From: Aquipuribacter nitratireducens
GTDB taxonomy: Bacteria; Actinomycetota; Actinomycetes; Actinomycetales; JBBAYJ01
Length of the DNA stretch: 64,000 bases
Reading direction: 5' to 3'
Assembly: GCF_037860835.1 (NCBI RefSeq)
Contig: NZ_JBBEOG010000002.1
Span: 434,001-498,000 of the forward strand
Shown here: piece after piece, positions 44,495 through 50,888 of the stretch
Position numbering within the stretch: position 1 is the first letter of the stretch
Layout: the number at the start of each line of letters is the position of its first letter
The notes under the pieces: generated by a model
Database searches by the model: none
What the model was told of the DNA's origin: nothing
Seen by the model: the letters and a program-made list of their open reading frames with translations, nothing else
Position numbers and translations under genes: made by a program

Positions 44495-47245
44495 ATGCTG
44501 ACCGAGCATGTGTCGCGGCCACGAGCGCTGGCGGTGCTCCGGGTCCTCGTGTGGGCGGTCGCCGCCCCGCTCGTGGGCCTCGGCGTCCTCGCCGTGGGGT
44601 CGCTCGGGCGCTGGAGCAGCCCGGAGTCGGCGCAGCAGGTCCGCACGCTCGTCCTGCTCGGCTGCCTCGCGGTCCTCGCCCTCGCCCTGGGGGTCCGTGC
44701 GGTGCGGGCGGTGGGGCGGGAGCGCCTCGCCTGGCTCGGCGCGGCGCTGCTGGCCCCCGTCGGCGCGGTCGTCGTCGTCGGCGGGGGCAACGGCACGTCC
44801 GGCACGAGCCTCGTGGCCCGCGCCGGCGTCGCCGTCCTCCTCGTCGTGGCCGTCCTCCTGTCACCCGGGGTCCGGCGCAGCCCGGACCGGGCCGTCATGC
44901 TCGTCCTCGAGGGCTGGGCGCTGAGCGCGGGACCGCTGCTCGCGGGACTGCTCCTGTGGACGGCGACCGCGCCCGGCGGTCGGCTGCCGCCCACGGCCGA
45001 GCCCGTCGTCGGGGTGTGGATCCTCCTCGACCTCGTCGTGCTCTCCCTGCTCGTCGGCCTGTGGCGCCGCCAGGAACGGGGGGAGCGCGGCCGGGTCGCC
45101 CCGCTCGTCGCGTCGGTCGCGGCGATGACCGCGGCCGAGGCGGTGACGTGGCGGGGCGGCACCACGGGACCGGCGGACGCGTGGTCGGACTCCCTGTGGG
45201 CGGTCGCCGTCGTGGCCGCGGCGGCCGCCGCCGTCGGGCGCGAGCCGCTGTTCCTCCACCTCGGCCCGGTGCGACGCCGCGCGAGCGACGTCCACGCGGA
45301 CCAGGAGCCGCCGTTGACGCGCCACGAGTCCCGCACCTGGCTGCCCGTCGTCGTCGTCGGTGTCGTCGCGTGCCTCGTCGCGGTCCGCAGCCTCGCGGGA
45401 CTCGGCCCCGAGCCGGTGTTCGTCGCCCTCACCTTCAGCCTCGTCGTCGCGGTCCTGGCGCAGACGGTCATCCTCCTGCGCGAGCAGTCCCGGCTCGCGC
45501 GCCGGCTCCACGAGACGTCCGTCCGCTTCCGCACGATCGTCGACGGCTCGTCCGACGTCGTCGCCGTCTGCGACGCCGCCGGGGTCGTCGTCTTCTCCAG
45601 CCCGGCCGCGCGCGCCGTGCTCGCGATGGAGCCGGGCGAGCTCGAGGGACGCCGCCTCAGCGGTCTCGTGCACCCCGCCGAGCAGGACGAGCTCGACGAC
45701 GCGCTCGTGACCGGCCGCCACGAGCCGGTCGCCCTCGACCGCGTGCGGGTGGGCCGCGCGGGCGGGGGCTGGCGCCACATGGAGGTCCGCATCCACCCGC
45801 ACGACACCCCGGCCGTCCCGGGCGGCCTCACGGTCGTCATGCGGGACGTGTCGGAGCGGGTCCGGCTGCAGCGCGAGCTCGAGCGGCGCGCACGCTACGA
45901 CGCCCTCACGGGGCTGCCCAACCGGTGGTGGTTCTCCCGGGCCCTCGCCGACCGGGTCGCCGCCGGCCTGCCGACGTCGGTCGTGTTCATCGACCTCGAC
46001 GAGTTCAAGGCCGTCAACGACACCGAGGGTCACGCCGTCGGCGACCGCCTCCTCGTCGCCGCGGCGCGTCGGCTCCGCTTCGCCGTCGCCGAGGACGACG
46101 TCGTGGGTCGCCTGTCCGGTGACGAGTTCGCCGTCATGGTGTGCGACGACGACGTCGACCACGTCCGCCGCGTGGCGGACAAGGTCCTGGAGGAGATGGT
46201 CGCCCCCTACGCGGTCGGCACGCGCCGCCTGCGGGTCGCGGCGAGCGTCGGGCTCGCGGTCGCCCAGCCCGGCGGCACGGCCGACGACGTGCTCCGCGAC
46301 GCCGACCTCGCGATGTACGAGGCGAAGCGCGCCGGGGGCCGTCGTGCCGTCACCTCCCACCCCCGGCTGCTCGCGAGCGCGCTCGAACGGACCGAGCTCG
46401 AGCGGCGGGTGCGGGAGGCGGCGGAGAGCCGTGACTTCGAGCTCCACCACCAGCCCGTCGTGTCGCTGTCGGACGGGCGCGTGCTCGGCAGCGAGGCGCT
46501 GCTGCGGTGGCCGGGCTCCGGGGTGGGGCCGGCGGAGTTCGTCCCGTTCCTCGAGCACAGCGGTCTCATCCTCGAGGTGGGGGCGTGGGTCCTCGACACC
46601 GCGCTGCGCCAGGCGGCGGCGTGGGCCGCGCAGGGGGCGCCGCTGTCCGTCGCGGTCAACCTCTCGCCCCGACAGCTCGTCGACACCCAGCTCGTGGAGC
46701 GCGTCCGCAGCGGCCTGGCCGCGCACGGCGTCCCGGCGGACCGGCTCACGCTGGAGGTCACCGAGACGACCCTCCTCCGCGACGTCGACGCCGCCGTCGA
46801 GACGCTCGCGGCACTGCGCGCGACCGGCGTGCACGTCGCGCTCGACGACTTCGGCACCGGCTACTCCTCCCTCGCCCACCTCCACCGGCTGCCGATCGAC
46901 GTGCTGAAGGTCGACCAGGCGTTCGTCCGGGCCGCGACCGTCTCGCCCCGCGACCAGGCCGTCCTCCGCTCGATCGTCGCCCTCGGGCACGAGCTCGGGC
47001 TCACGGTCGTCGCGGAGGGCGTGCAGGAGGTGGCGCACGTGCACCTCCTGCGGGCGCTGGGGTGCGGGCGCGCCCAGGGCTTCCTCCTCGCCCCGCCGGT
47101 ACGGTCCGAGGACGTGCCCCGCGTCGTCGACGTGCCCCCGGTCGGGGCCGGGTCGCCGACCGCCGACGACCTCCGCGCCGACCTCGGCTCCGCCGACATC
47201 CGGACGGCCGTCTCACCCCTCGGGACAGGAGGGGTCGCCACCTGA
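44495..47245 (+). CDS. Membrane PAS-GGDEF-EAL cyclic-di-GMP enzyme
   Basis: This protein of about 916 residues has eight or nine predicted membrane helices in its first 330 residues. A PAS domain follows (RTIVDGSSDVVAVCDAAGVV), then GGDEF and EAL domains. The cyclase motif is SGDEF near residue 541, an active variant. The usual upstream RxxD inhibitory site is absent (AEDD). The phosphodiesterase motif EALLRW lies near 667, with DDFGTGYSSLAHL and KVDQAFV conserved. It could make or degrade c-di-GMP in response to a membrane or PAS signal. GAGGA precedes the ATG. It has no evident link to the flanking ilv genes. Confidence 0.92.
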   Translation: MLTEHVSRPRALAVLRVLVWAVAAPLVGLGVLAVGSLGRWSSPESAQQVRTLVLLGCLAVLALALGVRAVRAVGRERLAWLGAALLAPVGAVVVVGGGNGTSGTSLVARAGVAVLLVVAVLLSPGVRRSPDRAVMLVLEGWALSAGPLLAGLLLWTATAPGGRLPPTAEPVVGVWILLDLVVLSLLVGLWRRQERGERGRVAPLVASVAAMTAAEAVTWRGGTTGPADAWSDSLWAVAVVAAAAAAVGREPLFLHLGPVRRRASDVHADQEPPLTRHESRTWLPVVVVGVVACLVAVRSLAGLGPEPVFVALTFSLVVAVLAQTVILLREQSRLARRLHETSVRFRTIVDGSSDVVAVCDAAGVVVFSSPAARAVLAMEPGELEGRRLSGLVHPAEQDELDDALVTGRHEPVALDRVRVGRAGGGWRHMEVRIHPHDTPAVPGGLTVVMRDVSERVRLQRELERRARYDALTGLPNRWWFSRALADRVAAGLPTSVVFIDLDEFKAVNDTEGHAVGDRLLVAAARRLRFAVAEDDVVGRLSGDEFAVMVCDDDVDHVRRVADKVLEEMVAPYAVGTRRLRVAASVGLAVAQPGGTADDVLRDADLAMYEAKRAGGRRAVTSHPRLLASALERTELERRVREAAESRDFELHHQPVVSLSDGRVLGSEALLRWPGSGVGPAEFVPFLEHSGLILEVGAWVLDTALRQAAAWAAQGAPLSVAVNLSPRQLVDTQLVERVRSGLAAHGVPADRLTLEVTETTLLRDVDAAVETLAALRATGVHVALDDFGTGYSSLAHLHRLPIDVLKVDQAFVRAATVSPRDQAVLRSIVALGHELGLTVVAEGVQEVAHVHLLRALGCGRAQGFLLAPPVRSEDVPRVVDVPPVGAGSPTADDLRADLGSADIRTAVSPLGTGGVAT

Positions 47246-47264
47246 CACCGGCCCGGGTGGGGCG

Positions 47265-47270
47265 TACCGT
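47265..47270 (+). promoter_or_regulatory. -10-like hexamer of the ilvB leader
   Basis: TACCGT lies 7 bases before the GTG of the leader peptide at 47278, so the leader peptide would be read from a leaderless transcript. The element is 20 bases after the stop of the GGDEF-EAL gene. Confidence 0.5.
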
Positions 47271-47277
47271 CGCCCCC

Positions 47278-47349
47278 GTGGCACAGCACGGTGACTCCCG
47301 GGGCCCCAGGGCCGTCGGGGTACTCGTACTCGGCAGGCGCGTCGCCTGA
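47278..47349 (+). CDS. Putative ilvB leader peptide
   Basis: This 23-codon reading frame encodes [20 protein letters not shown] followed by RVA. Its second half is crowded with branched-chain residues: four Val and two Leu within eleven codons. Two of the Val codons are GTA, rare in this GC-rich genome, placed as GTA CTC GTA CTC. It starts 7 bases after TACCGT and ends 133 bases before ilvB. Val/Leu/Ile-rich leader peptides control ilvBNC by attenuation in Corynebacterium and Streptomyces. No protein of its own function is expected. Confidence 0.6.
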
Positions 47350-47379
47350 CCGAGCTGCAGCCACGGCCCGAGCGACGCG

Positions 47380-47413
47380 CGACCCCTCAGCCCCGACCGG
47401 GGAGGAGGGGTCG
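47380..47413 (+). promoter_or_regulatory. ilvB leader hairpin A (putative attenuator)
   Basis: CGACCCCT (47380-47387) pairs with AGGGGTCG (47406-47413), and CCCC (47391-47394) pairs with GGGG (47399-47402) inside it. CCCCGAC at 47391-47397 can instead pair with GTCGGGG (47314-47320) in the leader peptide sequence, which would disrupt the hairpin when ribosomes clear or stall there. No T tract follows. Confidence 0.5.
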
Positions 47414-47455
47414 TCCCGCGTCCGGGCACCGGCCCGCGCGGGGTGGCGCGGGACG
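47412..47455 (+). promoter_or_regulatory. ilvB leader hairpin B
   Basis: CGTCCCGCG (47412-47420) pairs exactly with CGCGGGACG (47447-47455). It overlaps the last two bases of hairpin A and ends 27 bases before the ilvB ATG, so the two structures may compete and one may mask the ribosome-binding region. Confidence 0.45.
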
Positions 47456-47482
47456 GACGCGGACGGAGAGGACAGCACGACG

Positions 47483-50888
<3,406 letters not shown>

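Follow-up and report, generated by a model that had tools for sequence, protein, structure and literature searches.

A predicted leaderless ilvL attenuator upstream of ilvBNC in Aquipuribacter nitratireducens with a terminator hairpin that lacks a U-tract

Introduction

The region upstream of the ilvBNC operon of Aquipuribacter nitratireducens raises the question of whether a leader-peptide attenuator of branched-chain amino acid biosynthesis can operate with a terminator hairpin that is not followed by a run of U. The region was analysed in a window of 64,000 nt, by which the whole stretch of DNA under analysis is meant (contig NZ_JBBEOG010000002.1, positions 434,001 to 498,000 of the forward strand); all coordinates below are those of the window. 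A 2005 study (PMC1262725) predicted an attenuation device upstream of ilvB in Corynebacterium, Mycobacterium and Streptomyces. In Corynebacterium glutamicum, the mechanism was tested by changes of codons, hairpins and start codon (PMC11857589), and in Mycobacterium tuberculosis GUA is the control codon and changing the LVVI codons abolishes induction (PMC13236596, 2026). Contrary to this, codon changes at ilvB of Streptomyces coelicolor were without effect on regulation, as stated in PMC1262725. A first-pass annotation, made from the sequence alone, had placed a leaderless leader peptide and two competing hairpins upstream of ilvBNC and had referred to ilvB attenuation in Corynebacterium and Streptomyces as known.

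Very probably, ribosome-mediated attenuation controls the ilvBNC operon at this locus, by a device of the type already known upstream of actinobacterial ilvB. It has the defining features tested except for the run of U, and what is new is this U-less variant of the terminator.

Results and discussion

Operon, leader peptide gene and predicted start

The operon and the elements preceding the stems are located as follows:

47242..47247, + strand: -35 element CTGACA (nTGACn type), from sequence, with a 17-nt spacer to the -10 element
47265..47270, + strand: -10 element TACCGT (TAnnnT type), from sequence, 7 nt before the start codon
47278..47349, + strand: leader peptide gene ilvL, predicted to be leaderless, supported by homologous peptides before ilvB in other actinobacteria
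47320..47331, + strand: control codons GTA CTC GTA CTC, of which CTC-GTA (47323-47328) is the conserved pair
47465..47472, + strand: Shine-Dalgarno-like GGAGAGGA of ilvB, from sequence
47483..49294, + strand: ilvB, acetolactate synthase large subunit (NF005860, 1116 bits)
49297..49809, + strand: ilvN, acetolactate synthase small subunit (NF008864, TIGR00119)
49860..50888, + strand: ilvC, ketol-acid reductoisomerase (NF004017, TIGR00465)

The assignment of the downstream genes as ilvB, ilvN and ilvC in the first-pass annotation was borne out by these profile matches. The upstream neighbour is a gene for a GGDEF/EAL-type protein, which ends at 47245, so that its stop codon is overlapped by the -35 element CTGACA.

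A short open frame rich in branched-chain amino acid codons is present upstream of ilvB: it comprises 23 codons from GTG (47278) to TGA (47349) and contains the run GTC GGG GTA CTC GTA CTC, as had been described. The GTA codon was likewise rightly called rare, with 15 of 1673 Val codons (0.9%) in the genes of the window, and it appears twice in the leader peptide gene, adjoining CTC codons. Translation of the frame yields no Ile; the earlier description of a Val/Leu peptide devoid of Ile is thus accurate, its claim to novelty is not, since lack of Ile is ordinary variation within this family.

Judged by sequence geometry, the -10 element lies about 7 nt before the start codon, and both promoter elements match the nTGACn and TAnnnT motifs reported for Streptomyces lividans (PMC8079986). 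Transcription is predicted to start at 47278 or at the next base. A scan for the strict E. coli-type sigma-70 consensus gave no promoter here, as expected, the rules being those of E. coli. Among 68 leaders with the peptide, TAnnnT was found 6–8 nt before an in-frame start codon in 35 and at 3–5 or 9–12 nt in 0, and since this spacing recurs, the leaderless start belongs to much of the family, not to this genome alone. For C. glutamicum ilvL, PMC11857589, citing Morbach, places the transcription start a single nucleotide away from the start codon, and ilvL of S. lividans (MRTRILVLGKRVG) was described as 'transcribed leaderless' (PMC8079986). With leaderless ilvL published for Corynebacterium and Streptomyces, the leaderless start is not new, contrary to the earlier proposal; the geometry itself, with TACCGT 7 bases upstream, is present and recurs in relatives. 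A start site downstream of the peptide had been named as an observation that would speak against the proposal; the start can only be predicted from the sequence, and the prediction fits 47278.

Conservation among relatives and comparison with known systems

Regions upstream of ilvB were taken from genomes of the order and from named genomes, giving 102 usable loci, 68 of which carry a peptide with GTA at the same position. In 65 leaders, the residue preceding the GTA anchor is Leu in 63 (encoded by CTC in 61), the residue following it is Leu, Val or Ile in most, and Arg is usual at +4; the window peptide is homologous to these other ilvL peptides (LV[LV].GRR[AV] with CTC-GTA). Both other genomes of the genus contain the leader peptide (one of them as VARDGILLVEVLVVGRRVA), and the genus retains the peptide end VLVxGRRVA together with CTC-GTA.

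A covariance model (R1) of the peptide end, the antiterminator stem P1 and the terminator, with the window included in training, found matches in 158 of the 248 genomes of the order, in most of them a single one. Because R1 contains the window, a further model (R2) was trained with the three genus members left out; it located the window element at 47323-47414 (52.0 bits, E 4.8e-11), which is also its best place in the whole 3.8 Mb genome. A search of the window with 4227 Rfam models gave no ilvB-related match up to E 5.

The direct sequence relative is ilvL before ilvBHC of Streptomyces (PMC8079986, PMC1262725), with ILVLGKRVG against VLVLGRRVA in the window. CTC-GTA, P1 and a CCCCTC/GAGGGG terminator are shared and the Streptomyces leader is leaderless by mapping of the transcription start site, but there the hairpin is followed by TTTTTT. 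The ilvL/ilvBNC system of C. glutamicum (ilvB-II motif; Morbach et al. 2000; PMC10272879; PMC11857589) has in common with the window a leaderless Val/Leu peptide with an Arg-rich end (MTIIRLVVVTARRLP), an antiterminator linking the peptide gene with the base of the terminator, the terminator itself and the ilvBNC operon, and differs in peptide sequence and in the presence of a U-run. A leader uORF, a GUA control codon and a terminator hairpin are shared with the ilvB1 attenuator of M. tuberculosis (PMC13236596), in which the uORF contains LVVI, a ribosome at the stop codon blocks the antiterminator, and reporter and codon tests were done. Unlike in the window, P1 of the mycobacterial leaders compared is longer, at 11–17 bp, and shares as many as 5 bases with the terminator, and a U-tract is present. 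With this element, one more lineage is added to those in which this well-studied regulatory device occurs.

Antiterminator and terminator stems

The following elements were assigned in the leader RNA:

47334..47348, + strand: P0, local hairpin CAGGCG/CGCCTG over the stop codon, from folding; a genus-level prediction
47337..47345, + strand: P1 (antiterminator) 5' arm GCGCGTCGC, within the peptide gene, from covariation
47372..47380, + strand: P1 (antiterminator) 3' arm GCGACGCGC, from covariation
47380..47388, + strand: P2 (terminator hairpin) 5' arm CGACCCCTC, from folding and conservation
47405..47413, + strand: P2 (terminator hairpin) 3' arm GAGGGGTCG, from folding and conservation
47366..47379, + strand: 5' strand by which P2 might be lengthened at its base (P2b, 47374-47379; P2c, 47366-47370), a weak candidate
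47414..47427, + strand: site of the U-tract in relatives, here TCCCGCGTCCGGGC with no T run; 3' strand of the possible extension

An antiterminator spans from the 3' end of the peptide gene to the base of a terminator hairpin. The 5' arm of P1 is formed by the last codons of the peptide gene; this stem had been overlooked in the first-pass annotation. In an alignment without the genus, 91.2% of the cells of P1 were paired and 6 of the 9 pairs had changed on both sides, and the covariation score of P1 and P2 together was 0.243, whereas slid registers scored 0.05-0.10 and shuffles 0.125; the outcome was the same with the genus members included. In most leaders, the 3' arm of P1 adjoins or slightly overlaps the 5' arm of P2, and P1 and the upper P2 stem of the window have one base in common only. 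The 3' arm of P1 and both arms of P2 are identical in the 3 genus members, with a differing loop between the P2 arms, and the whole leader folds more stably than its shuffles (z -3.2). In some leaders (L010, L038, L039, L043), the gene stops before the P1 arm (LVLP* TAG CGCGC), which there sits just 3' of the stop codon, outside the gene.

Three pairings were discarded. The leader segment GTCGGGG (47314-47320) had been proposed to pair with CCCCGAC (47391-47397); this complementarity is literally present, but its probability was 0.00 in every folded state, and as an antiterminator it cannot form in either of the two sister genomes (GTCGAGG and GTGGAGG). The second of the two hairpins proposed earlier, at 47412-47455, fared similarly: 47412-47420 and 47447-47455 are complementary, but the pairing had a probability of 0.00 in every state tested and is not conserved within the genus. 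P0 was not retained as a family-wide element, covariation being absent across the wider family. The first of the two hairpins (47380-47413, now P2) exists and is conserved, and the lack of conserved peptide or stems in relatives, by which the earlier proposal might have failed, was not found: peptide, P1 and P2 are all conserved. Given the conserved peptide, the covarying P1 and the conserved spacing of -10 element and start codon, there is good support for reading the locus as a leader-peptide attenuator of ilvBNC that depends on rare GTA codons and whose peptide is probably translated from a leaderless start.

Folding with an assumed ribosome footprint masked gave a P1 core probability of 0.98 with the ribosomal A site at the second GTA, once the transcript reaches 47400, and of 0.00 with the ribosome at the stop codon. 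P1 of the window is high (0.76) only within a narrow range of transcript lengths. When 63 leaders were cut at a set point after P1 and folded in the same way, the mean P1 probability was 0.67 in the stalled state and 0.06 at the stop codon, and 53 of the 63 leaders showed the expected difference. The window gave 0.06 and 0.00, respectively, in this fixed-length test, because its P1 appears only in slightly longer transcripts. That P1 is blocked by a ribosome at the stop codon follows in large part from the assumed footprint, so that these values indicate a fitting geometry, not that the switch occurs. In the fully transcribed leader, P2 wins over P1 at equilibrium; the choice must therefore be a kinetic one, in agreement with the models published earlier (PMC11857589; PMC13236596). 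In folding of the free RNA, P0 suppresses P1 in the genus when the ribosome is absent, whereas P1 is formed in most relatives; by this prediction, the genus would be 'off without translation' and most relatives 'on without translation'.

Loss of the U-tract

The longest T run after P2 in the window is 1, so that no run of U follows the hairpin, and a scan for U-tract terminators with E. coli-type rules gave no match here, as expected. Among 126 leaders, the T run after the terminator is at least 3 in 119 (range 3–7, usually 5–7) and 1 in the other 7, namely the 3 of this genus and 4 of one genus in another family of the same order (L012, L013, L019, L190), the sister genus of which keeps TTT. 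Locus GC over 3–6 kb was used in place of genome GC. The six loci of highest GC are all among these 7, and the remaining U-less leader is eighth in rank (0.742); the exception is L218, with seven Ts at a locus GC of 0.743. None of the 126 leaders has fewer than 3 Ts below a locus GC of 0.742, and T-run length falls with locus GC (Spearman -0.52, n 126, the relatives not being independent). In the genome itself, 7 T runs of four or more were counted in 400 kb on both strands, and genome-wide counts of hairpin-plus-T-run terminators gave too few cases for a comparison between species.

A lower extension of P2 (47374-47379 with 47417-47422 and below) is possible in 3/3 genus members. Against shuffled tails, p was 0.22 for the window and 0.19 and 0.014 for the two relatives; as the extension beats shuffled tails in only one of three, a lower stem replacing the U-tract is only a hint. 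Tail pairing of this kind was seen elsewhere: in several leaders (L210, L016, L190, L013, L192, L194), sequence after the U-tract site can pair with sequence preceding the terminator, and such pairing is slightly commoner than in shuffled tails (10/77 leaders at p up to 0.05).

GC-rich hairpins without a U-tract, proposed to end transcription, are also described as I-shaped intrinsic terminators of mycobacteria (PMC12288462), the predicted terminator here differing in that it sits in a regulated attenuator with U-tract-bearing orthologues. The same review reports U-less terminators in mycobacteria, yet cites work by which mycobacterial polymerase requires a U-tract, and the need for one is disputed between Ahmad 2020 and Czyz 2014, as both are cited there. 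Most likely, the locus is a classical branched-chain amino acid attenuator whose terminator would work without a U-tract. A wider proposal, on balance somewhat doubtful and offered tentatively, is that in at least 2 actinobacterial lineages above ~74% GC a working attenuator gave up its U-tract and the hairpin alone decides termination, possibly with a lengthened lower stem in direct competition with the antiterminator. If termination by the hairpin alone were true, pairs of orthologues with and without U-tract would constitute a natural series on the need of actinobacterial polymerase for a U-tract. More than 100 orthologous attenuators have the same peptide end and stems, with a U-run going from 5–7 to 1 as GC rises, and thus offer paired test substrates for U-independent termination, which is disputed in high-GC bacteria and bears on attenuator function in M. 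tuberculosis.

Proposed mechanism and alternatives

With peptide, promoter spacing, P1, P2 and operon established at the level of sequence comparison, stalling, switching and termination are envisaged as follows. RNA polymerase would begin with the GTG at 47278 or directly beside it, giving a leaderless mRNA that would be translated immediately. When charged Leu or Val tRNA is scarce, above all the one reading GUA, the ribosome would stall at 47320-47331 and leave the end of the peptide gene (47337-47345) free to pair with 47372-47380, forming P1; this would prevent full formation of the base of P2, and transcription would continue into ilvBNC. A ribosome that reaches the stop codon would cover 47337-47345, so that P1 could not form, P2 would, and transcription would stop. 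As P2 has no U-tract in this genus, termination here would have to be U-independent, aided by NusG or Rho, or leaky.

Chance alone, i.e. an open frame and GC-rich hairpins in a genome of 75% GC, might be invoked on the grounds that the open frame extends far upstream (ORF 46507-47349) and that such a GC content makes hairpins common; comparison refutes it through the homologous peptides, the promoter spacing, the covarying P1 and the match of the held-out model (E 4.8e-11), and its probability is practically nil. Control of ilvB translation or mRNA stability by the conserved elements, instead of transcription termination, is highly improbable. It would agree with the absent U-tract and with leaderless Cys leader peptides in mycobacteria, which attenuate translation according to a reference of PMC13236596, but ~50 nt separate the end of P2 from the Shine-Dalgarno sequence of ilvB, most of which stays unpaired in the predicted fold, and relatives of the same layout have textbook terminators.

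The remaining alternatives leave the peptide in place and differ in how, or whether, transcription ends. If Rho stopped transcription, an unstalled ribosome would free RNA at the stop codon, Rho would load on the leader and P2 would serve mainly as a pause, with the peptide and the choice between P1 and P2 unchanged. The missing U-tract fits this, as does M. tuberculosis, where ends are mostly Rho-dependent and canonical U-tract ends make up 2–4% (review PMC12288462); the arms of P2 and their placement relative to P1 are, however, kept in the genus, which Rho alone would not need, and an ordinary U-tract lies at the same place in most relatives, so that this course is considered rather unlikely. 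Alternatively, the terminator could be decaying in very GC-rich genomes, leaving the attenuator leaky or dead and ilvBNC near constitutive. U-tract loss indeed tracks GC content, and the scarcity of T runs of four or more (7 in 400 kb of the genome) points the same way. Simple decay is argued against by arms (P1 3' arm and both P2 arms) that stay identical in 3 genus members while the loop varies and by the retained VLVxGRRVA end with CTC-GTA, both of which indicate selection; moreover, the leuS attenuator of the same genome keeps TTTT and one of the two genus relatives has it too, so that U-tracts are not wholly gone from the lineage. Decay is accordingly thought improbable, and a classical attenuator with a terminator working without a U-tract remains the preferred reading.

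Related attenuators

The leuS attenuator is a second leaderless leader (VHHRSLVLTGPR*) in this genome, located before the gene for leucyl-tRNA synthetase (G000:C11, ~5.85 kb; L246 1474-1580). Its TATCGT lies 6 nt before GTG, its P1 is CCGCGCTG:CAGCGCGG, and its terminator GCCCCTC/GAGGGGC carries the TTTT mentioned above; both genus relatives have this attenuator as well, one with a run of 4 Ts and one with a run of 2. Upstream of cimA, one family of the order has a second copy of the ilvB-type attenuator (L224 1001-1107, G049:C132:60446; also in G034 and G092); cimA encodes citramalate synthase (TIGR00977), the entry to isoleucine, and the codons of this leader are CTC GTC ATT ATC (Val/Ile).
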